A DNA stretch of 60,000 nt from positions 19,075,765 through 19,135,764 of the forward strand of contig NC_087078.1 in NCBI RefSeq assembly GCF_026151205.1, in the 5' to 3' direction. A program made the translations under genes and the position numbers. The notes under the pieces are model-generated. The model saw nothing but the letters and a program-made list of their open reading frames with translations, did not search any database and was not told the DNA's origin. The stretch comes from Bolinopsis microptera. Its lineage: Eukaryota > Ctenophora > Tentaculata > Lobata > Bolinopsidae. Shown here piece after piece: positions 9,919 to 47,611 of this stretch. Each line of letters begins with the position of its first letter. Position 1 is the stretch's first letter.

Positions 9919-12900
9919 ATGAACCTTGTTTATGTAGTCGTAGCAACAGTTCTTCTCTCCCTTGCTACGAGTAAATGTCCGTTAAAGAAGAAAAAGCTCC
10001 AAAAGACGATCAGGCAGTACCAGATCAAATGTCTTAATAAAGGTTACATCTCGAAACTAGGGTGCGACTCCAAAGACATGAAGAAACCGAACAGGAAGGT
10101 TGTGAAGAAGTGCAGCAAGATGGAGAAGAAAGTAAAGAAGTGCGGGTACAAATGAAGAAGTGCAGCAAGATGGAGAAGAAAGTAAAGAAGTGCGGGTACA
10201 AATGAAGAAGTGCAGCAAGATGGAGAAGAAAGTAAAGAAGTGCGGGTACAAATGAAGAAGTGCAGCAAGATGGAGAAGAAAGTAAAGAAGTGCGGGTACA
10301 AATGAAGAAGTGCAGCAAGATGGTGAAGAAAGTAAAGAAGTGCGGGTACAAATGAAGAAGTGCAGCAAGATGGAGAAGAAAGTAAAGAAGTGCGGGTACA
10401 AACGCGAACAGGAAGGTTGTGAAGAAGTGCACTAAGATGGAGAAGAAAGTAAAGAAGTGCGGGTACAAATGCGAACAGGAAGGTTGTGAAGAAAGTAAAG
10501 AAGTGCGGGTACAAATGAAGAAGTGCAGCAAGATGGAGAAGAAAGTAAAGAAGTGCGGGTACAAATGCGAACAGGAAGGTTGTGAAGAAGTGCAGCAAGA
10601 TGGAGAAGAAAGTAAAGAAGTGCGGGTACAAATGCGAACAGGAAGGTTGTGAAGAAGTGCACCAAGATGGAGAAGAAAGTAAAGAAGTGCGGGTACAAAT
10701 GTGAACAGGAAGGTTGTGAAGAAGTGCAGCAAGATGGAGAAGAAAGTAAAGAAGTGCGGGTACAAATGCGAACAGGAAGGTTGTGAAGAAAGTAAAGAAG
10801 TGCGGGTACAAATGAAGAAGTGCAGCAAGATGGAGAAGAAAGTAAAGAAGTGCGGGTACAAATGAAGAAGTGCAGCAAGATGGTGAAGAAAGTAAAGAAG
10901 TGCGGGTACAAATGAAGAAGTGCAGCAAGATGGAGAAGAAAGTAAAGAAGTGCGGGTACAAATGCGAACAGGAAGGTTGTGAAGAAGTGCAGCAAGATGG
11001 AGAAGAAAGTAAAGAAGTGCGGGTACAAATGTGAACAGGGGATGACGCTGAGAGCTACATGTGACAACATCATGACGGTTTACGTGGACGGAGCTGAACA
11101 GGAAGCCACTGGAACGAGTGATTGGAAAAAGGAATCTGTGGTTCACGTTACCTCCTCTTTTAAAGTCATGGCTATAAAATGCACAAACTTGCGATCTTCC
11201 CAAGGTATTCTGGCGTCACTACAAGACAATGATGATGAGTATGTTATTGTAACGGTATTCTGGCGTCACTACAAGACAATGATGATGAGTATGTTATTGT
11301 AACGGACGGTTCCCAAGGTATTCTGGCGTCACTACAAGACAATGATGATGAGTATGTTATTGTAACGGTATTCTGGCGTCACTACAAGACAATGATGATG
11401 AGTATGTTATTGTAACGGTATTCTGGCGTCACTACAAGACAATGATGATGAGTATGTTATTGTAACGGACGGTTCCCAAGGTATTCTGGCGTCACTACAA
11501 GACAATGATGATGAGTATGTTATTGTAACGGTATTCTGGCGTCACTACAAGACAATGATGATGAGTATGTTATTGTAACGGTATTCTGGCGTCACTACAA
11601 GACAATGATGATGAGTATGTTATTGTAACGGTATTCTGGCGTCACTACAAGACAATGATGATGAGTATGTTATTGTAACGGTATTCTGGCGTCACTACAA
11701 GACAATGATGATGAGTATGTTATTGTAACGGTATTCTGGCGTCACTACAAGACAATGATGATGAGTATGTTATTGTAACGGTATTCTGGCGTCACTACAA
11801 GACAATGATGAGTATGTTATTGTAACGGTATTCTGGCGTCACTACAAGACAATGATGATGAGTATTTTATTGTAACGGTATTCTGGCGTCGCTACAAGAC
11901 AATGATGATGAGTATTTTATTGTAACGGTATTCTGGCGTCGCTACAAGACAATGATGATGGGTATTTTATTGTAACGGTATTCTGGCGTCACTACAAGAC
12001 AATGATGAGTATTTTATTGTAACGGTATTCTGGCGTCGCTACAAGACAATGATGATGGGTATTTTATTGTAACGGTATTCTGGCGTCACTACAAGACAAT
12101 GATGAGTATGTTATTGTAACGGTATTCTGGCGTCACTACAAGACAATGATGATGAGTATGTTATTGTAACGGTATTCTGGCGTCACTACAAGACAATGAT
12201 GAGTATGTTATTGTAACGGTATTCTGGCGTCACTACAAGACAATGATGATGAGTATTTTATTGTAACGGTATTCTGGCGTCGCTACAAGACAATGATGAT
12301 GAGTATTTTATTGTAACGGTATTCTGGCGTCGCTACAAGACAATGATGATGGGTATTTTATTGTAACGGTATTCTGGCGTCACTACAAGACAATGATGAG
12401 TATTTTATTGTAACGGTATTCTGGCGTCGCTACAAGACAATGATGATGGGTATTTTATTGTAACGGTATTCTGGCGTCACTACAAGACAATGATGAGTAT
12501 GTTATTGTAACGGTATTCTGGCGTCACTACAAGACAATGATGATGAGTATGTTATTGTAACGGTATTCTGGCGTCACTACAAGACGATGATGATGGGTAT
12601 GTTATTGTAACGGACGTCGCTACAAGACAATGATGATGGGTATGTTATTGTAACGGACGTCGCTACAAGACAATGATGATGAGTATGTTATTGTAACGGA
12701 CGTCGCTACAAGACAATGATGATGGGTATGTTATTGTAACGGACGTCGCTACAAGACAATGATGATGAGTATGTTATTGTAATTTGTAACGGACGGTTCC
12801 TGGAGGTGTTCTAGTGAGGAAGAAATAGGGTGGATGAAACCGAACTTTGGGGAAAGTTCTGGAAACTGGCAACCAGCTGATATCATCGGTCCACATATGC

Positions 12901-24044: not shown

Positions 24045-26276
24045 AGGTGAAATATGGTGAAATGTGGTGAAATGTGGTGAAATGTGGTGAAATGTGGTGA
24101 AATGTGGTGAAATGTGGTGAAATGTGGTGAAATGTAGTGAAATGTAGTGAAATGTGGTGAAATGTAGTGAAATATGGTGAAATGTGGTGAAATGTAGTGA
24201 AATGTAGTGAAATGTAGTGAAATGTGGTGAAATGTGGTGAAATGTAGTGAAATGTAGTGAAATGTGGTGAAATGTGGTGAAATGTGGTGAAATGTGGTGA
24301 AATGTGGTGAAATGTGGTGAAATGTGGTGAAATGTGGTGAAATGTGGTGAAATGTGGTGAAATGTAGTGAAATGTAGTGAAATGTGGTGAAATGTAGTGA
24401 AATATGGTGAAATGTGGTGAAATGTAGTGAAATGTAGTGAAATGTAGTGAAATGTGGTGAAATGTGGTGAAATGTAGTGAAATGTAGTGAAATGTGGTGA
24501 AATGTGGTGAAATGTGGTGAAATGTGGTGAAATGTGGTGAAATGTAGTGAAATGTAGTGAAATGTGGTGAAATGTAGTGAAATATGGTGAAATGTGGTGA
24601 AATGTAGTGAAATGTAGTGAAATGTAGTGAAATGTGGTGAAATGTGGTGAAATGTGGTGAAATGTGGTGAAATGTGGTGAAATGTAGTGAAATGTAGTGA
24701 AATGTGGTGAAATGTAGTGAAATATGGTGAAATGTGGTGAAATGTAGTGAAATGTAGTGAAATGTAGTGAAATGTGGTGAAATGTGGTGAAATGTGGTGA
24801 AATGTGGTGAAATGTGGTGAAATGTGGTGAAATGTGGTGAAATGTGGTGAAATGTGGTGAAATGTAGTGAAATGTAGTGAAATGTGGTGAAATGTAGTGA
24901 AATATGGTGAAATGTGGTGAAATGTAGTGAAATGTAGTGAAATGTAGTGAAATGTGGTGAAATGTGGTGAAATGTAGTGAAATGTAGTGAAATGTGGTGA
25001 AATGTGGTGAAATGTGGTGAAATGTGGTGAAATGTGGTGAAATGTGGTGAAATGTAGTGAAATGTAGTGAAATGTGGTGAAATGTAGTGAAATATGGTGA
25101 AATGTGGTGAAATGTAGTGAAATGTAGTGAAATGTAGTGAAATGTGGTGAAATGTGGTGAAATGTGGTGAAATGTGGTGAAATGTGGTGAAATGTAGTGA
25201 AATGTAGTGAAATGTGGTGAAATGTAGTGAAATATGGTGAAATGTGGTGAAATGTAGTGAAATGTAGTGAAATGTAGTGAAATGTGGTGAAATGTGGTGA
25301 AATGTAGTGAAATGTAGTGAAATGTAGTGAAATGTGGTGAAATGTGGTGAAATGTGGTGAAATGTGGTGAAATGTAGTGAAATATGGTGAAATGTGGTGA
25401 AATGTAGTGAAATGTAGTGAAATGTAGTGAAATGTGGTGAAATGTGGTGAAATGTGGTGAAATGTGGTGAAATGTGGTGAAATGTAGTGAAATGTAGTGA
25501 AATGTAGTGAAATGTGGTGAAATGTGGTGAGATGTGGTGAAATGTGGTGAAATGTGGTGAAATGTAGTGAAATGTAGTGAAATGTAGTGAAATGTAGTGA
25601 AATGTGGTGAAATGTGGTGAAATGTGGTGAAATGTGGTGAGATGTAGTGAAATGTAGTGAAATGTAGTGAAATGTGGTGAAATGTGGTGAAATGTAGTGA
25701 AATGTAGTGAAATGTAGTGAAATGTGGTGAAATGTGGTGAAATGTGGTGAAATGTGGTGAAATGTAGTGAAATGTAGTGAAATGTGGTGAAATGTAGTGA
25801 AATGTAGTGAAATGTAGTGAAATGTAGTGAAATGTAGTGAAATGTGGTGAAATGTGGTGAAATGTGGTGAAATGTGGTGAAATGTGGTGAAATGTAGTGA
25901 AATGTGGTGAAATGTAGTGAAATATGGTGAAATGTGGTGAAATGTAGTGAAATGTAGTGAAATGTAGTGAAATGTGGTGAAATGTGGTGAAATGTGGTGA
26001 AATGTGGTGAAATGTAGTGAAATGTGGTGAAATGTGGTGAAATGTGGTGAAATGTGGTGAAATGTAGTGAAATGTAGTGAAATGTGGTGAAATGTAGTGA
26101 AATGTAGTGAAATGTAGTGAAATGTAGTGAAATGTAGTGAAATGTGGTGAAATGTGGTGAAATGTGGTGAAATGTGGTGAGATGTAGTGAAATGTAGTGA
26201 AATGTAGTGAAATGTGGTGAAATGTGGTGAAATGTGGTGAAATGTGGTGAGATGTAGTGAAATGTAGTGAAATGTG
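24045..26276. repeat. 10-bp minisatellite, about 223 copies
   Basis: Head-to-tail AATGTGGTGA units. Variants are mainly G/A (AATGTAGTGA), with rarer AATATGGTGA and a few GATGTGGTGA/GATGTAGTGA. The rare AATATGGTGA units recur at 24171, 24401, 24581, 24721, 24901, 25091, 25231, 25381 and 25921, always followed by one GG and then AG units, so blocks of roughly 140-230 bp were duplicated as higher-order repeats. The array ends at the 3' side in AATGTGGAGTTTT. Confidence 0.95.
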
Positions 26277-26279
26277 GAG

Positions 26280-33280: not shown

Positions 33281-36200
33281 CTAAGTCTGTCTTTGCATTC
33301 GCTTATAAATAAGCATCCTCTCACTAGTCACCCCGAACTGAGCAGACTGATAAAGCCCCACCCGCCTCATTATCAGCTGACAATAAATACAGTTTTCCTT
33401 GCTTGAAACCTCCAAATTATTCCCGTTTTTCGAGTTCAGCCCTGAGTTTAACTTCCCAGTTTTACTACTCAACTTGGCCAGTTCCTTGGCCAGGTTAAAG
33501 TCGTGGATGTTGTTTTTATCCTTACAAAGATCTACAAGTCGTTGGTAATTGTAGAGGTGCATGGAGGGGTGGCTGGAAGGGGGGCTTTCTCTCGAACCGG
33601 ATCAGGTTGATCACCAGGGAAAGGTGTCATGAACGCCTCTTTCATAGCTTTCTCTGTTATCTTTACTACAGCCTGGATGTCTGGTAGGTGTATCTTGTTG
33701 CTTGATCCTGGGGTAGAACCTTTCAAAACTTGGTGAGATTATTAATTAAAAGTTCTGGACAAGGGATAAAAATAACGCCCAAGTCTTATCTTTCCCTAAA
33801 GCAAATAACTAAATCCATTTTTATTTCTGCTTGCAGTGAGGGTGAAATAAATGATCGATAAATGCCAGTAAAAATACTTTTGTATGGAACAGAATATAAC
33901 TCATCTGACTATAACTCAAAGTTTATTAAAGCAGCTACTACATTAAAGATAACCTCATAACACACCTATATCGTAACTAAAGCAGTAACTTAAAGCAGCT
34001 ACTACAATAAAGATAACCTCAGAACACACCTATATCGTAACTCATTACAATAAAGATAACCTCAGAACACACCTAAATCGTAACTCATTACAATAGAGAT
34101 AACCTCAGAACACACCTATATCGTAACTAAAGCAGTAACTTAAAGCAGCTACTACAATAAAGATAACCTCAGAACACACCTATATCGTAACTCATTACAA
34201 TAAAGATAACCTCAGAACACACCTATATCGTAACTCATTACAATAAAGATAACCTCAGAACACACCTATATCGTAACTCATTACAATAAAGATAACCTCA
34301 GAACACACCTATATCGTAACTAAAGCAGTAACTTAAAGCAGCTACTACAATAAAGATAACCTCAGAACACACCTATATCGTAACTCATTACAATAAAGAT
34401 AACCTCAGAACACACCTAAATCGTAACTCATTACAATAGAGATAACCTCAGAACACACCTATATCGTAACTAAAGCAGTAACTTAAAGCAGCTACTACAA
34501 TAAAGATAACCTCAGAACACACCTATATCGTAACTCATTACAATAAAGATAACCTCAGAACACACCTATATCGTAACTCATTACAATAAAGATAACCTCA
34601 GAACACACCTATATCGTAACTCATTACAATAAAGATAACCTCAGAACACACCTATATCGTAACTCATTACAATAAAGATAACCTCAGAACACACCTATAT
34701 CGTAACTCATCGGTTGTTGCCACATAATGGTAGATTGTCTGGAGTGTCTGTAATCACCCTTGCTCCCTCTGGATACTCCCTGGTCCTCTGAAGACGGCAT
34801 ACACTCATGATCTAGCCGGTGATTGCTCGGACTTACTGCTGAGCGTCGTTGGTCGTGCTTGCTCGGGGTGATTGTTGCCTGGGGAATGTGGGTGTGATTA
34901 TCTGATCTCGATGTATTTTTTACATGTTTTCGATTATTGTTTAACCTCGATGTTAAGTTTTATAGTTCATGAATTAGGTAACCTCAGTCTAAGGTTTTGC
35001 ACATTGACGAGTAATGTTTAAAATAGTGCGTTGCAATCTTGTTAGTGGTTAGTGGTTATCTTATCGACGCAAAGTTTTCGCCGTTATAATTTGCACTTTA
35101 CAGTGGAAATAGTGAGCGCTGGAAATACTCGGGTTTGAAAAAATTTTGGTCTTTTTCCAGCTTTCATTTTAATTCAGCTCTCGGGAAAAGCAAAAATATC
35201 CATTTAAAGAAGGTAGATGGTAAAACAGGTAGGAATTAAACTATTCTTCACATGAAATGAGTATTTGGTTTCATTTTAACATGCAAAACATTCAGTTTCA
35301 TGGGTAAGAATTCATGCAAAAGACCAGTAATTGAAAGGACCCAGAAAAATGAATTTAAAACATGTTGATCAAATTAAAATTAGCACAATCAAATTTCCTT
35401 AAATTTGATCCTAATCCTTTGATATTGACCAGCGTACAACAAAATTAAATCCGACGAAAATTGTTATTTAAAGAAATTTCTAAACGTAGAGCTGATATGA
35501 GAAGGTATTCTTATATTAGTTACCGAAACAAATAATGATATCGTCAACGGTCAACGGCAGCTAGACTCGAAACAATTTCGACAAAGTTTATGTTGTCTTC
35601 AAGTTCAACAATAATTTAAGAATCGTTATAAAAAGCTACAAACAAACGCTGACGTACTCCAGTCGTCTCTCCCAACTTCTTGGTACCCGGACTGCTATAA
35701 CCGTACGACTTCTCCCTTTTTGGGTACACAAAGGAAGCTTTGCTGTTCTGCCTCCTCACTTCCACCCCCGACAGATAATCCGACAACTTCTCTTTCTGCT
35801 GGTCTATTGTGTATGATCTGATGGTGTCTACAGCTGTTTTAACCTTGGTTGGTAGGAGAGGAGGCGGCTCTCTGACCGGGAGATCTAGTTTGTTGGAGGT
35901 AGTTGTAGACTGTTCGCTCATGGCGGAGGAAGTGTTACTTATCCTGAATGTTTTGGGGTCCCGGGGTTCTATTATCGTACAGATACTCTGAGCTCTCAGT
36001 TCGGTTAGGTGTTGTGTAAGGTGATCTACATATGGTACGCTTACTTTGCGACATTTTTTCGGTTGTTTTAGTTGAGTCCGAGGTTGTAATCCGTGAGGGA
36101 TGTGGTTCTGAAAAATTTGGGATTGGGTAGATTTTGTGAGGATGAAATTCCCAGAAATTAGGTCACCTTTATCGATCAGAGTCTGATGAAATCGCATGAG

Positions 36201-39200
36201 AGAGTGTGAGATAATTATCAATTTATCTCAACGAGCAACCGATTCTTGAAATAATTTAGATGTTTCTGAGAAATTTACTGACCTGTTCCATCGAGGTGTG
36301 GTCAGCTGCATCGTACTTGAGTATGGTCTGGGACAAGGAGGGCAGATTCTTACCGAGCTTCGCCAAATCTTGATAGTCGCACAATTTAACGTCTGTTAAA
36401 CTCAGCGAGGGTTTCTTATCTGTACCTTGTAAGTTTGAAAATTAGTACATTTCACCGTTCAGCGAGGGTTTCTTATCTGTACCTTGTATGTTTGAAAATT
36501 AGTACATTTTACCGTTCAGCGAGGGTTTCTTATCTGTACCTTGTATGTTTGAAAATTAGTACATTTCAGCGAGGGTTTCTTATCTGTACCTTGTAAGTTT
36601 GAAAATTAGTACATTTTACCGTTCAGAGAGGGTTTCTTATCTGTACCTTGTAAGTTTGAAAATTAGTACATTTTACCGTTCAGCGAGGGTTTCTTATCTG
36701 TACCTTGTAAGTTTGAAAATTAGTACATTTCAGCGAGGGTTTCTTATCTGTACCTTGTAAGTTTGAAAATTAGTACATTTTACCGTTCAGAGAGGGTTTC
36801 TTATCTGTACCTTGTAAGTTTGAAAATTAGTACATTTTACCGTTCAGCGAGGGTTTCTTATCTGTACCTTGTAAGTTTGAAAATTAGTACATTTTACCGT
36901 TCAGCGAGGGTTTCTTATCTGTACCTTGTAAGTTTGAAAATTAGTACATTTCAGCGAGGGTTTCTTATCTGTACCTTGTAAGTTTGAAAATTAGTACATT
37001 TTACCGTTCAGAGAGGGTTTCTTATCTGTACCTTGTAAGTTTGAAAATTAGTACATTTTACCGTTCAGAGAGGGTTTCTTATCTGTACCTTGTAAGTTTG
37101 AAAATTAGTACATTTTACCGTTCAGCGAGGGTTTCTTATCTGTACCTTGTAAGTTTGAAAATTAGTACATTTTACCGTTCAGAGAGGGTTTCTTATCTGT
37201 ACCTTGTAAGTTTGAAAATTAGTACATTTTACCGTTCAGCGAGGGTTTCTTATCTGTACCTTGTAAGTTTGAAAATTAGTACATTTCAGAGAGGGTTTCT
37301 TATCTGTACCTTGTATGTTTGAAAATTAGTACATTTCAGCGAGGGTTTCTTATCTGTACCTTGTATGTTTGAAAATTAGTACATTTCAGCGAGGGTTTCT
37401 TATCTGTACCTTGTATGTTTGAAAATTAGTACATTTCAGCGAGGGTTTCTTATCTGTACCTTGTATGTTTGAAAATTAGTACATTTCAGCGAGGGTTTCT
37501 TATCTGTACCTTGTGTGTTTGAAAATTAGTACATTTCAGCGAGGGTTTCTTATCTGTACCTTGTATGTTTGAAAATTAGTACATTTCAGCGAGGGTTTCT
37601 TATCTGTACCTTGTATGTTTGAAAATTAGTACATTTTACCGTTCAGAGAGGGTTTCTTATCTGTACCTTGTATGTTTGAAAATTAGTACATTTCAGCGAG
37701 GGTTTCTTATCTGTACCTTGTATGTTTGAAAATTAGTACATTTCAGCGAGGGTTTCTTATCTGTACCTTGTATGTTTGAAAATTAGTACATTTTACCGTT
37801 CAGAGAGGGTTTCTTATCTGTACCTTGTATGTTTGAAAATTAGTACATTTTACCGTTCAGCGAGGGTTTCTTATCTGTACCTTGTATGTTTGAAAATTAG
37901 TACATTTTACCGTTCAGCGAGGGTTTCTTATCTGTACCTTGTATGTTTGAAAATTAGTACATTTTACCGTTCAGCGAGGGTTTCTTATCTGTACCTTGTA
38001 TGTTTGAAAATTAGTACATTTCAGAGAGGGTTTCTTATCTGTACCTTGTATGTTTGAAAATTAGTACATTTTACCGTTCAGCGAGGGTTTCTTATCTGTA
38101 CCTTGTATGTTTGAAAATTAGTACATTTCAGAGAGGGTTTCTTATCTGTACCTTGTATGTTTGAAAATTAGTACATTTCAGAGAGGGTTTCTTATCTGTA
38201 CCTTGTATGTTTGAAAATTAGTACATTTTACCGTTCGCGTTTTTAGTTACAACAGCTTGTATCTAGTTACAACTTACAACATATTATAGTATACATTACA
38301 TTTTACAGAATTTTAAAAACATAGTTTCTCGATGACTCTCTTGATAACGAAGTATGAACTCTGGATAGCACACGCTGTCACGCATTAATAAACTCTCAAT
38401 TAACTATTGCTTGTCAGTAAAGTAAAGTTCCTATGAGATCAAAGACATGTAGAAACAATGTACAATGAGGCCGCTGATATCAGAAAATTGTACTTGTTAT
38501 TTCTGGCTTCTTTTCTAATAAAATCATAACCACTTCATCGGCTTAACGAGTAGAATCAGCACTCTATTGCTCAGGTTGTTAAGTGTACTTTGTAATAATT
38601 GTCCTTTTTTATGCTTAATGCTGATGTTTCTTTGTTTTTCTAAATCTGTAACAACATGCCAGACGCCAGTCCGAATTGAACACCGCCCTTTTTGATAGTT
38701 TAACAAAATTATTTGCTAAACAAGGTGATTGGTGAATGAAAGATGCTTAAAAGCTTTAAAATGTTTTGTTGCTAATTTCAATTTTTCACCGTGTACCGGC
38801 TTATCTTTCATCTTGTCTTATTAATCTTATTTTCATCACAATTATGGGAAAAATTCCAATTGAGGTGGCTTTCTATGCAAGTTTACAGTAAACTGGAACA
38901 GTTAGATAGTTTTTTCAGATGATTTGTTTATTGAATTTAACCAGTAATTCTTACCATTGTGAAAATGGAAAATTCTAGGCTTAGCATCAAAGCTTCCTCA
39001 TATTTGCATTGGACTTGGAGATCGGAAATCGAGAAATGTGCTATAATTAACTTAAAGAACAAAGAAATTGTGTCACTTAAAACACCGCACATGATTAATT
39101 ACAAAACAATTGTAATATTAGTATTTACAGCCAATTAATCATCTTATATCTTCGTGAGAACGTCTTCTAGTTTCAATAACAAAGCTGCTATAGGTAAGCC

Positions 39201-42200
39201 AACCAATCTGAGTTTATCGCCAGGCTACTAGTTGTTACCAGGTTTTATTGAATTTATTTGTTTCGGCGGTCAAAAAACAAATTTTTAAAGAGATTATTGA
39301 CGAACCTGTTGTGGTTACAGTACGAACCTGTTGTGGTTACAGTACGAACCTGTTGTGGTTACAGTACGAACCTGTTGTGGTTACAGTACGAACCTGTTGT
39401 GGTTACAGTACGAACCTGTTGTGGTTACAGTACGAACCTGTTGTGGTTACAGTACGAACCTGTTGTGGTTACAGTACGAACCTGTTGTGGTTACAGTACG
39501 AACCTGTTGTGGTTACAGTACGAACCTGTTGTGGTTACAGTACGAACCTGTTGTGGTTACAGTACGAACCTATTTTGGTTACAGTACGAACCTGTTGTGG
39601 TTACAGTACGAACCTGTTGTGGTTACAGTACGAACCTGTTGTGGTTACAGTACGAACCTGTTGTGGTTACAGTACGAACCTGTTGTGGTTACAGTACGAA
39701 CCTGTTGTGGTTACAGTACGAACCTGTTGTGGTTACAGTACGAACCTATTTTGGTTACAGTACGAACCTGTTGTGGTTACAGTACGAACCTGTTGTGGTT
39801 ACAGTACGAACCTGTTGTGGTTACAGTACGAACCTGTTGTGGTTACAGTACGAACCTGTTGTGGTTACAGTACGAACCTGTTGTGGTTACAGTACGAACC
39901 TGTTGTGGTTACAGTACGAACCTGTTGTGGTTACAGTACGAACCTGTTGTGGTTACAGTACGAACCTATTTTGGTTACAGTACGAACCTGTTGTGGTTAC
40001 AGTACGAACCTGTTGTGGTTACAGTACGAACCTGTTGTGGTTACAGTACGAACCTGTTGTGGTTACAGTACGAACCTGTTGTGGTTACAGTACGAACCTG
40101 TTGTGGTTACAGTACGAACCTGCTGTGGTTACAGTACGAACCTGTTGTGGTTACAGTACGAACCTGTTGTGGTTACAGTACGAACCTGTTGTGGTTACAG
40201 TACGAACCTGTTGTGGTTACAGTACGAACCTGTTGTGGTTACAGTACGAACCTGTTGTGGTTACAGTACGAACCTGTTGTGGTTACAGTACGAACCTGTT
40301 GTGGTTACAGTACGAACCTGTTGTGGTTACAGTACGAACCTGTTGTGGTTACAGTACGAACCTGTTGTGGTTACAGTACGAACCTGCTGTGGTTACAGTA
40401 CGAACCTGTTGTGGTTACAGTACGAACCTGTTGTGGTTACAGTACGAACCTGTTGTGGTTACAGTACGAACCTGTTGTGGTTACAGTACGAACCTGTTGT
40501 GGTTACAGTACGAACCTGTTGTGGTTACAGTACGAACCTGTTGTGGTTACAGTACGAACCTGTTGTGGTTACAGTACGAACCTGTTGTGGTTACAGTACG
40601 AACCTGCTGTGGTTACAGTACGAACCTGTTGTGGTTACAGTACGAACCTGTTGTGGTTACAGTACGAACCTGTTGTGGTTACAGTACGAACCTGTTGTGG
40701 TTACAGTACGAACCTGTTGTGGTTACAGTACGAACCTGTTGTGGTTACAGTACGAACCTGTTGTGGTTACAGTACGAACCTGTTGTGGTTACAGTACGAA
40801 CCTGTTGTGGTTACAGTACGAACCTGTTGTGGTTACAGTACGAACCTGTTGTGGTTACAGTACGAACCTGTTGTGGTTACAGTACGAACCTGTTGTGGTT
40901 ACAGTACGAACCTGTTGTGGTTACAGTACGAACCTGCTGTGGTTACAGTACGAACCTGTTGTGGTTACAGTACGAACTTGTTGTGGTTACAGTACGAACC
41001 TGTTGTGGTTACAGTATCGGTGTCCTTCTTTTTGTTAAGCCTCCTAGCCAGCTCCTGTTTCTGGCGCTTGTAGTCTTGAAGATATGACGAAGGGAAGGAT
41101 GCTACTGACCTGAAAATTATATGTAAAGTAGGATACTTACGGCATTATCCATGAACCGCTATTTTAAACCTTTTAAACCGCTTTGGAGTCGACTCAAAGT
41201 AAAAAAGTGTTTCAAACGGTATTTCAAATGCGGTCATTTAAAACTTACGCTGTTGATATCCTGGGAAACATTATAGAAAAAGGAGGCTAAACGGATATAA
41301 TCACAACGAAGTTCAATCGAGATTTAGTTATTTCTTACTAAGTTTTTGAACCTTTGATCTTGAACGTGCATCATTATTTGCAACCGATGCTCAATATCAA
41401 CAACAAACAATAATTGCAGAAAAAAATATTACGATCCTAGAAGCAATAGCTTCTAAGTCAATAGCTTCTAGTCTAAGTGCAGCTATGTGGTTTCAAATAA
41501 TGTTTGATGTGGGTGTTGTTGATTTTATTTATAATCTGCAGGTCACATAACAGGTCACATAACAGGCGAAAAGATACGAACTTAGCTGTCCTCGGATATT
41601 TTAAACATACCACAATATTTCGTAAATTTCACGTAAATGACGGTCACATTTTCACACACCACATTAGTGCCCTTTTTGCTAGTATTAATTCTAAATAGAT
41701 TGGATTTTGAACGGTTCAAGATTAATCACAAGATGGTTCAAACTTGCTCCAACCTGACTGAGAACAACGATTACTCGCCATCACGAGAATGAATGACTTT
41801 ATCACGAGGCGAATCATGCTGTTTTATTTAGAGATGAGACGATACAGTGTTGTATCACCTGCAGATTTTAGAAAGACAACTGAATTCAGAAGGAATAAGT
41901 CTACCTTACTCTCTACCCTCGAAATACGAGCTCAGAAACTTGGTAAGAACTTGGTAATAAATTGGCTTAGCTTAACTAACCAATTGGCTTAACTGACACT
42001 CAATGCCCAGTGCCCATTTGTACTTTCCTGAATAACATAATTTTGTAAATCCTCTCTCAGGTTCGACCGCAGATAAGGGATCGAGAAGGAGGTCGTCCAC
42101 GATTCAAAATGTCATATCCCCTTCCATAGTGGCTTTCAAGGTTAGTTGTTTGTATTAAAATGCTGTTTATTTAATAATTTGTGAATTCCCTGTACTTTCT

Positions 42201-42709
42201 AGAATATTTGTCCTAATAATATATAAGCGGTACGTCTCGAAGTGCCACGGAACTTATAGTAGTAATACCTTGTGTCCAAAGTAACAGTCATTCTCCTTTT
42301 GGGGTGAATCTTTCTCGTAGATTGCCTCCTTTTTCCCCTCCTCGAATTTTTCTTTCCTCTCTTGGGAGTCTTTGTCCAACATCTGCTGGAATAAGGAGAT
42401 TAAAATTTAATTCCTGCTTGCACAGTGCACATTGTCGGACGCATTGCTGCTTACCATCTGATTTTATAAAGATTAAAAACAGTATTTAGCGCGATATTCG
42501 AAACATCAGATATCTATCAGGATATTCAACAAATAAAATAAAATGCCAGAAAACCAACTTTTACCTTGAAAAATGAGTTGTATCACCCCAGGGTCCAAAC
42601 ACCACATGTTTTTGGCACTTAATTTCGGTTTCAAGCTCGAAAAGGTCCACTTTTAAGGGATCAAATTCAAAATGACACGATGGGGACATTTGCCAAACGG
42701 GTCGAGAGG
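33281..42709 (-). CDS. Unrecognised multi-exon gene with minisatellites on its splice junctions (5' end missing)
   Basis: Seven phase-consistent exons: 42709-42565, 42385-42269, 41109-41000, 36425-36283, 36107-35658, 34878-34707, 33719-33281, about 515 residues. Motifs in order: FELETEIKCQKHVVFGPWGD; a Lys/Arg-rich exon; YLQDYKRQKQELARRLNKKK (likely helix); KLCDYQDLAKLGKNLPSLSQ; PYVDHLTQHLTELRAQS; VDTIRSYTIDQQKEKLSDYL; KIHLPDIQAVVKITEKAMKE; YNYQRLVDLCKDKNNIHDFN; stop at 33281. No signal peptide or membrane segment, so probably intracellular; I recognise no family. The last exon needs a frame change near 33614-33589, explained by one base missing in a C6 run or by a 26-nt GT-AG segment. The exon before 42709 was not found. 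Exons 3, 4 and 6 each have one splice site inside a tandem array. The second exon is also open in another frame, but only the basic frame agrees with both neighbours. Confidence 0.72.
33940..34706 (-). repeat. 43/66-bp minisatellite starting at a splice donor
   Basis: Sixteen copies of a 43-bp unit (motif CCTCAGAACACACC on the plus strand). Four are lengthened to about 66 bp by an AAAGCAGTAACTTAAAGCAG insert. On the minus strand the array starts exactly at the donor of the exon ending at 34707 (ATGA|GTTACG), and every unit repeats ATGA|GTTACG. It fills the 5' three-quarters of that intron. Confidence 0.9.
36402..38237 (-). repeat. 50/57-bp minisatellite carrying a 3' splice site
   Basis: About 34 units, roughly half 57 bp and half 50 bp (lacking a 7-bp TACCGTT part on the plus strand). 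Read on the minus strand, each unit has TACTAAT (branch-point-like), then a short tract and an acceptor (CTTACAAG or CATACAAG). Next come about 24 nt identical to the start of the coding exon 36425-36283. Differences between units are few: CTTACAAG/CATACAAG, TCG/TCT and presence of the 7-bp part. Confidence 0.95.
39301..41016 (-). repeat. 22-bp minisatellite carrying a 5' splice site, 78 copies
   Basis: Exactly 1716 bp, or 78 units of 22 bp (plus strand CGAACCTGTTGTGGTTACAG plus TA). Rare unit variants are TATTTTG and TGCTGTG. On the minus strand each unit is about 16 nt copied from the end of the coding exon 41109-41000 (ACTGTAACCACAACAG) plus six intron bases (GTTCGT). The exon's own donor CAG|GTTCGT is therefore repeated every 22 bp down the intron. 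Confidence 0.97.
41832..42140 (+). CDS. Possible pair of antisense exons
   Basis: Within a minus-strand intron, two plus-strand segments look like exons. They are 41832-41942 (TTTAG|AG...CTTG|GTAAGA; MRRYSVVSPADFRKTTEFRR) and 42061-42140 (TCTCAG|GT...CAAG|GTTAGT; STADKGSRRRSSTIQNVISP). Phases agree (1, then 0). The product is basic and Ser-rich, and unrecognised. No start, stop or further exons were found, and part of the second segment is also open on the minus strand (HYGRGYDILNRGRPP). Confidence 0.3.
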
Positions 42710-44305
42710 CTGGAGTTAAAAACATAACGTTAAGACAAATCGAAATACAACCCTCCTGAGTCCTGACGGCTATGTCACAAACAAATCAGGAATGTCAATC
42801 CGTTTAATCAATACATGCTAAGCAACTCTAGATAGCGCAAGTGAGCCTTGAAATACTACGATTTCCAAGCTGATAGTATACGATATCCAAGTGTGCTGCT
42901 TGATAAAGCACTAATTGCACTGCGCATATTATCTAGAAGTATAATAATATGTTATGCTTCATACGATATTAAATAGTGTAAACAAAGACAGACTCTGATG
43001 CTGTTTTAAAAGTCATTCAAACGTCGGTTGTACTTCAGTAGACAATCTGTCCTGTGAACCAAAGCTAAATTTAAATATCTGCAGGTTTTTGTGAGATTGT
43101 GGTATCGCAAATAACTCGTTATGACATCAACCAAAATCAGATTCATCAATAATCACCAATCAACATGTTAACATTTTTCGAAAAAGTTAATGCATTACCA
43201 ATTATGTACTATTGCAATCACATAGAGGTTAATCCAGTGGCAAAACATTGGTAAAACAGTAGGTAGCTCATGAAACTTTCTCGTTGTTATGCAGCCCAGA
43301 TGGCGTACTTTTAGACTTATCAATGCCTTTTCAAATCGATAGGAGGAGAGGGGCTAACTTTTTGCATTTTTGGCCCTTTTGCTGAGTTTGAAATAATTGT
43401 TTGTCGTGCTTTCTTTTGGTATTAATTAGAATTGTGGCTATCCTGCAAAAGTTTGACATAATATTGCAATGGATTGGTATTAATCTAACTCGAAGTCGAA
43501 TAATATTGAGCGCTTCTAATTTCGAAGCAGTATCTTCTTAGGTCCTCTCAAATAGGTGAAGAGAAAATCATTTTCTTAAATAATCAAAGTAGTGGTCCAA
43601 ACTCCAGAGCAAAGATCCTAAATTTAAATAAAAGCAAAAGTGGAATGTAAACTAATATCTTCAAGGAAAGCACGAATTATCAAAGGTATTTCGCTTACTG
43701 TCCCCTTTTTTGGGAGTTCAACTCCTGCACAAGCGTACTAAAACTGTAAATAAATCTACTTCAGTTGTGTGAAAGTTAATAACAGTTAGTAACATCAAGC
43801 TTGAGGTACTCAGGTTACTGTGCATCAATTAGTAAAAAGAAGAAGAGTAAAAACGAGTATGAGGTATGAAGTATTGGCAGCACGCAGACAAGATAAGAAG
43901 GCAAAATATGTCTAGGGCAGCGTCTGCCGTGCAAATTCTGCTGTACTAGTGTACTGTGGGAGAGTCTGCCAAATATGCGGTAGAGTCCAGCAAGCAGAAT
44001 TCAGGAATTAAAAAATGTCGTTATTTTTACGTAAAGCAAGTGAAGAATGTACATGATGTTCTTGATGTACTTGATTGTACATGCTGGTGCCGCTTCCGAT
44101 CGAATGGATCTTCGCTTTACATCAGACTACAAGCCTTCAAACAAATTGTCGTATGCAGTTGACCACTAGTAGAAATATCGAGCAAATTTATGTTGAATAA
44201 AACTGAAGGCTCTGGTTCAATCAATGGACAGAAAATAATTTTCTGACATGTTGATCAACCTTTAGATGTTGGTCGCTGTGTCGGCTCCCCACTGGTAAAT
44301 GCAAC
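42710..44305. other. non-coding or unassigned
   Basis: The missing 5' exon(s) of the minus-strand gene may be here, but no segment matched the required phase with good splice sites. Confidence 0.3.
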
Positions 44306-46920: not shown

Positions 46921-47611
46921 GGCCTCTGCCTCTGCCTCTGCCTCTGCCTCTGCCTCTGCCTCTGCCTCTGCCTCTGCCTCTGCCTCTGCCTCTGCCTCTG
47001 CCTCTGCCTCTGCCTCTGCCTCTGCCTCTGCCTCTGCCTCTGCCTCTGCCTCTGCCTCTGCCTCTGCCTCTGCCTCTGCCTCTGCCTCTGCCTCTGCCTC
47101 TGCCTCTGCCTCTGCCTCTGCCTCTGCCTCTGCCTCTGCCTCTGCCTCTGCCTCTGCCTCTGCCTCTGCCTCTGCCTCTGCCTCTGCCTCTGCCTCTGCC
47201 TCTGCCTCTGCCTCTGCCTCTGCCTCTGCCTCTGCCTCTGCCTCTGCCTCTGCCTCTGCCTCTGCCTCTGCCTCTGCCTCTGCCTCTGCCTCTGCCTCTG
47301 CCTCTGCCTCTGCCTCTGCCTCTGCCTCTGCCTCTGCCTCTGCCTCTGCCTCTGCCTCTGCCTCTGCCTCTGCCTCTGCCTCTGCCTCTGCCTCTGCCTC
47401 TGCCTCTGCCTCTGCCTCTGCCTCTGCCTCTGCCTCTGCCTCTGCCTCTGCCTCTGCCTCTGCCTCTGCCTCTGCCTCTGCCTCTGCCTCTGCCTCTGCC
47501 TCTGCCTCTGCCTCTGCCTCTGCCTCTGCCTCTGCCTCTGCCTCTGCCTCTGCCTCTACCTCTACCTCTACCTCTACCTCTGCCTCTACCTTTGCCTTTG
47601 CCTTTGCCTAG
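46921..47611. repeat. (TGCCTC)n hexanucleotide array, about 115 units
   Basis: A perfect GCCTCT repeat for about 630 bp, then a degenerate tail with TACCTC and TTTGCC variants at 47554-47609. Variants occur only at this end, so the array has a pure core and a decayed right edge. All frames are open on both strands purely because of the repeat. Confidence 0.97.

Follow-up and report, generated by a model that had tools for sequence, protein, structure and literature searches.

Tandem arrays straddle both splice sites of one intron, and a third splice site of the same gene, in the ctenophore Bolinopsis microptera

In the 60,000-nucleotide stretch of the Bolinopsis microptera genome analysed here (NCBI RefSeq assembly GCF_026151205.1, contig NC_087078.1, positions 19,075,765 to 19,135,764 of the forward strand; hereafter the window, with positions counted from its first letter), the gene LOC134818366 of this lobate ctenophore has tandem repeats spanning its exon-intron boundaries at three junctions, with repeat units that themselves carry the splice signal. 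Two of these arrays lie at opposite ends of a single 4574-bp intron, whose donor is present in 78 copies and whose acceptor is present in 34. We consider it probable, at roughly 80%, that such arrays are splice-junction minisatellites of the same kind as the 'mirages' of amphioxus: born locally, overlapping a splice site, and tolerated as splicing removes the extra copies.

The arrays were detected with Tandem Repeats Finder (TRF) in the one assembly examined, and the doubly arrayed intron with its flanking exons is laid out as follows.

41000..41109, minus strand: coding exon 3, 3' end at the outermost donor CAG|GTTCGT (open frame and predicted protein P0001)
39300..41016, minus strand: donor array, 78.0 copies, period 22 (TRF)
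36426..40999, minus strand: intron with both splice sites arrayed, 4574 bp (junction as in P0001)
36402..38236, minus strand: acceptor array, 34.0 copies, TRF period 57, unit spacing 50/57 bp (TRF)
36283..36425, minus strand: coding exon 4, 5' end at the outermost acceptor (open frame and P0001)

That exons 41109-41000 and 36425-36283 join in phase, as the first-pass annotation of this DNA had proposed, is borne out by the open frame of the joined exons and by the junction TTTG|TDKK, which is present in P0001, a predicted NCBI protein, and links 41000 to 36425. Both flanks are thus exons of one gene and, by the TRF bounds, both junctions lie inside arrays. The 22-bp donor unit consists of the last 16 exon bases plus GTTCGT, a hexamer counted 78 times within the array, in agreement with the copy number first proposed; the donor had been described as CAG|GTTCGT throughout, which is exact for 74 copies, with TAG preceding the hexamer in three and CAA in one. 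The 78 units fall into four types with 70, 4, 3 and 1 copies, and their mean pairwise identity of 0.988 marks a homogenised array for which chance origin is no issue. At the other end of the intron, the unit holds TACTAAT, ACAAG|GTACAG and the first 24 exon bases. These elements and the count of about 34 units stand as first annotated, although ACAAG|GTACAG recurs at a spacing of either 50 or 57 bp (34 times in all) and the acceptor comes in three sequence variants: CTTACAAG in 14 of the 34 copies, CATACAAG in 19 and CACACAAG in one. AG|GT is found in 77 of the 78 donor copies and AAG|GT in all 34 acceptor copies, and about 1.06 kb of the middle of the intron (38237-39299) belongs to neither array. 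Because 22-bp units extending over 1.7 kb are difficult to assemble, the copy numbers could have been inflated or collapsed by an assembly artefact, but we regard this as very improbable as an account of the structure, given that rare unit variants are scattered through the array, that unrelated arrays lie over other junctions in the same genome, and that an assembly error would alter the copy number and not the existence of the arrays.

The consequences of using one copy or another were examined by pairing every donor copy (78) with every acceptor copy (34) and reading to the annotated stop. A single pair out of 2652 remained open, namely the first donor with the last acceptor, which is the outermost pair and the one found in P0001. 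With the next donor or the next acceptor in its place, a stop was met within about a dozen codons, and each of the other 2651 pairs lost the frame or met a stop. The suggestion that the arrays offer a huge choice of equivalent splice-site pairs therefore has to be abandoned: inner copies break the frame or bring in a stop, and as far as the protein is concerned the copies cannot stand in for one another. Splicing at the outermost sites leaves the extra copies within the intron, where they can be tolerated.

The whole gene runs on the minus strand from 42725 to 33532. Most of it was first pieced together manually on the basis of splice sites and open reading frames, and its protein was then used for a search. 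At E values up to 10 this returned three matches in all: P0001, which is the B. microptera LOC134818366 isoform X2 and is 99% identical to the hand-built model; a hypothetical protein of Mnemiopsis leidyi (75% identity); and an unnamed protein of 200 residues. P0001 fixed the seven coding exons, and the hand-built start at 41145 and last exon at 33719 were replaced on its basis. The remaining exons and the third array are these.

42565..42725, minus strand: coding exon 1, ATG at 42725 (bounds reproduce the P0001 N-terminus)
42269..42382, minus strand: coding exon 2 (bounds fitted to P0001)
35658..36107, minus strand: coding exon 5 (model and P0001)
34695..34878, minus strand: coding exon 6, 3' end ATATAG|GTGTGT (model and P0001)
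33939..34710, minus strand: third array, 16 donor copies of the last intron (TRF)
33532..33707, minus strand: coding exon 7, the last, with the stop; acceptor CCCCAG|GATC (as in P0001)

The third array is built of units mostly 43 bp long that include the last 16 exon bases, and it straddles the donor at 34695, bringing the straddled coding splice sites of the gene to three of 12; the first-pass annotation had not noted it. The junction between exons 1 and 2 can be placed in seven ways that yield the same protein, among which AAG|GTAAAA ... CAG|ATG was picked. The homologues found for the gene product carry no Pfam label, and a Pfam scan limited to the 84-residue exon join gave one match, below the cut-off (E 0.085). 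In Mnemiopsis the orthologue is ACHWQZ_G003030. Beside the end of P0001, a second minus-strand frame (33281-33601) closely matches the C-terminus of the Mnemiopsis homologue (MHLYNYQRLVDL onward); near 33565 the two species differ by a frame shift that may be real, polymorphic or an assembly slip.

The wider genome was sampled through two families chosen regardless of arrays, with Pfam searches giving 109 kinesin and 73 myosin matches. Introns were taken between neighbouring matched exons; the DNA of 107 of the 109 kinesin and 55 of the 73 myosin matches was taken in, and exon pairs were resolved in 60 of 63 and 29 of 30 cases, respectively. Arrays cover 22% of the 52 kb of sampled intron sequence. 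They straddle seven of 120 kinesin junctions (60 introns), falling in five gene regions, and none of 58 myosin junctions (29 introns; Fisher P 0.10), the myosin set being poorer in introns above 1 kb (2 of 29 vs 14 of 60, with mostly 1.5 kb of flank taken in). Some of the straddled kinesin stretches encode DLAGSE, SSRSH or LGNV, which we take to be kinesin motifs. The straddled kinesin junctions are listed below.

C2:22504379, donor: 35 bp x 25
C2:16577959, donor: 53 bp x 8
C12:14430091, donor: 33 bp x 52
C13:6732394, donor: 38 bp x 2
C5:9864627, donor: 53 bp x 2
C2:22514490, acceptor: 49 bp x 29
C13:6736837, acceptor: 21 bp x 24

Match ends were left out of this count where the junction was not resolved, had been resolved elsewhere, or carried an array scoring below 50. 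On the kinesin side these are the acceptors at C12:14430589 (26 bp x 112), C2:6087295 (49 bp x 7) and C7:16227279 (9 bp x 4), the donors at C7:4102748 (degenerate, 11-21 bp) and C12:14434913 (18 bp x 3), and both ends of C12:14836690-14836857 (AT-rich); on the myosin side they are five array-overlapped ends, the largest with 8 bp x 141 at C3:11064165. Also left out are C12:14833833 and C2:22511842, where the arrays start at intron base 1 or 2. Since arrays straddle a few percent of junctions, occasional introns with arrays at both ends would be expected.

In one kinesin gene (L035, C12:14427000-14436500), a matched exon is preceded by an acceptor array of 112 x 26 bp, and the next matched exon is followed by a donor array of 52 x 33 bp. 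Another kinesin gene (L073-L074, C2:22503900-22518000) has one intron with 29 copies of an acceptor plus the DLAGS-coding exon start and another intron with 25 donor copies. Two pairs of kinesin loci (L007/L008 and L010/L011), each on one chromosome and one of them inverted, are about 99% identical over their alignable part, with the array outside it. Adjacent matches at C3:9154012-9154203 and 9154255-9154485 correspond to one and the same part of the myosin head (105-167 and 102-167) and are perhaps a duplicated alternative exon.

The pattern seen in the doubly arrayed intron recurs at the other straddled junctions. For the window's third array and for all seven straddled kinesin junctions, the coding copy is the outermost one and the sole copy that keeps the frame; for C13:6736837, where the downstream match holds a stop, the exon was trimmed for this test and one of 39 candidate sites, the last, kept the frame, whereas C12:14833833, with a single site copy, was left out of the count. 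Scored with a hand-written donor table and hand-set acceptor weights, inner copies surpassed the coding copy at two of the ten straddled junctions (C2:22514490, 3 of 29; C13:6736837, 8 of 39), so that position, not site strength, would have to decide. The multiplied sites could instead be functional, the arrays buffering or regulating splicing through recursive splicing at AG|GT ratchet points or a switch to non-productive isoforms, which would fit the AG|GT of nearly all copies in the two window arrays, since splicing within the array could regenerate the same site, and the loss of product that any inner pair would bring about. As AG|GT is missing at four of the five straddled kinesin donors and the copy number of sites ranges from 2 to 78, we hold a functional role to be unlikely.

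A sequence of events leading to such minisatellites can be outlined. A short local tandem duplication would have chanced to span the exon-intron boundary with the outermost site left intact, and the array may then have grown by replication slippage or unequal exchange. Lying on the intron side of the outermost site, the extra copies would be spliced out and the protein left unchanged, which would allow such arrays to survive; if the spliceosome uses the outermost site, further growth would be invisible to selection on the protein. The spliceosome would have to favour the outermost over near-identical inner sites, and here exon definition, which favours short exons bounded by their outermost sites, could pick the outer sites across exons of 110 and 143 nt.

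Several points weigh against this account. Use of the outermost pair in this gene is a prediction from the reading frame and from P0001, itself a predicted protein, and the label 'isoform X2' of P0001 implies that another isoform is annotated. The complete lack of straddled junctions among the 58 sampled in myosin points to a rate that is perhaps not uniform (Fisher P 0.10 against kinesin). Finally, if the arrays were born wholly blindly, the possible excess of strong ones at donors would not be expected.

This last point bears on whether the arrays were seeded at junctions, the junction sequence or co-transcriptional processing starting tandem duplication more often than elsewhere in introns. 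The first-pass annotation had judged arrays over both junctions of one intron hard to explain as random minisatellites and had invoked duplication seeded at AG|GT proto-splice sites. The latter fails as a general rule: AG|GT is present at three of the seven straddled donors (both in the window, one of five in kinesin) vs 49 of 89 sampled donors, and hence is not enriched. For the former, the outcome varies with the threshold. Within the final 30 exon bases next to 89 introns, the number of exon-side array edges was compared with the edge density of intron interiors at four TRF thresholds; at a period of at least 10 and a score of at least 100, donors had 5 edges vs 0.7 expected (P 0.001), and at a score of at least 80 they had 5 vs 1.0 (P 0.003), while donors and acceptors together gave 7 vs 1.7 at a score of at least 100 (P 0.002). 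The three straddled sites among the 12 of the window gene point the same way. At a score of at least 50, however, donors had 5 edges vs 2.1 expected (P 0.06) and acceptors 2 vs 2.1 (P 0.6), and for acceptors the exonic bin reached significance at none of the four thresholds (2 vs 1.0, P 0.28, at period 10 and score 100). Moreover, a uniform-placement simulation over 76 introns, including part of the kinesin introns, yielded 4.4 expected straddles against the 4 observed, the P values are uncorrected for the four thresholds, the seven kinesin junctions fall in only five gene regions, and the window gene had been chosen on account of its arrays. Over the opening 30 bases of the intron, at score 50, donors had 6 edges vs 2.0 expected (P 0.017) and acceptors 7 vs 2.0 (P 0.005), an excess that consists partly of short AT-rich repeats. 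Seeding at junctions is therefore possible, with an outcome that depends on the threshold, and we place junction-seeded growth at well under even odds. The same tentative standing applies to its broader form, in which junctions would be preferred birthplaces of minisatellites, strong arrays would start in the last exon bases at several times the rate seen elsewhere in introns, arrays of decoys would lie over a few percent of all junctions, and dozens of near-identical sites would have to be ranked by the spliceosome on position alone.

The origin of the units themselves was addressed by whole-genome DNA searches in which very common words were skipped. The exon end of the acceptor array matched at this locus only, and the end of the donor array matched this locus, which lies on C7, and a stretch of 73-76% identity on C2. 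Such confinement of the units argues for local birth and not for a dispersed element, and by their sequence they look like local copies of the boundary itself, unlike a mobile element. Introner elements share with these arrays a repeated sequence carrying splice sites, but they are dispersed across a genome, whereas the units here are, as far as these searches show and apart from the match on C2, private to one junction; an introner-like element was accordingly rejected.

The closest known structures are the mirages of amphioxus, described in Adh3, globin, troponin C and PGBD5 genes (PMC3087553 and PMC3902484, with Canestro et al. 2002 as cited there). Mirage units measure 10-72 bp in Adh3 and 150-160 bp in globin, the data are reported to suggest no interference with regular splicing (PMC3087553), and one globin mirage has 3 or 6 units depending on the haplotype. 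The present structures are probably of the same kind. They differ in that the host is a ctenophore, that one intron is arrayed at both of its sites while the gene has a further arrayed site, and that the copy numbers are 78, 34 and 16.

The amphioxus authors also put forward (PMC3087553) a route by which an intron arises when an exon segment containing AGGT is tandemly duplicated (the Rogers model), under which the present arrays would be debris of intron birth; the Mnemiopsis protein P0002, which lacks two residues exactly at the junction of the arrayed intron, could be read in its favour. The 22-bp donor and 57-bp acceptor units, however, share at most five bases in a row, a run equalled by 324 of 500 shuffles. 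The two arrays are also separated by some 1 kb of intron, and a single duplicated exon segment would yield one unit. We consider intron gain of this type quite unlikely. The potato RdRp case (PMC4974935) is similar in that a tandem duplication carries splice signals and the extra copies become intronic; here, in contrast, there is no sign of a new intron, the two units are unrelated, and donors need not be AG|GT. In ctenophores, the accessible parts of the genome papers report tandem repeats as 13% of the Hormiphora genome and one discarded tandem-repeat scaffold in Mnemiopsis, and a comparative chromatin paper contains no term for minisatellites, tandem repeats or splice-site arrays. No title or abstract was found to report splice-site arrays in ctenophores (Bolinopsis, Mnemiopsis), subscription papers and supplements being outside the search; within those searches, this is the first ctenophore case of splice-junction arrays.

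Other repeats are also present in the window. At 24046-26277, 223 copies of the 10-bp unit GGTGAAATGT are open in three minus-strand frames, and this unit looks weakly donor-like on the plus strand; GCCTCT is repeated 115 times at 46922-47609, with several frames open; and two adjoining 50-bp minisatellites (17 and 32 copies) occupy 10103-12782, with long open frames across the first.

Taken as splice-junction minisatellites, these arrays extend a lancelet curiosity to a very distant animal phylum, and they may be common in this ctenophore, given seven straddled junctions among 120 in kinesin, though none among 58 in myosin. They offer a natural test of how the spliceosome selects one site from as many as 78 donors, or 34 acceptors, that are near-identical and differ in little but position, as well as a natural test of where minisatellites are born.

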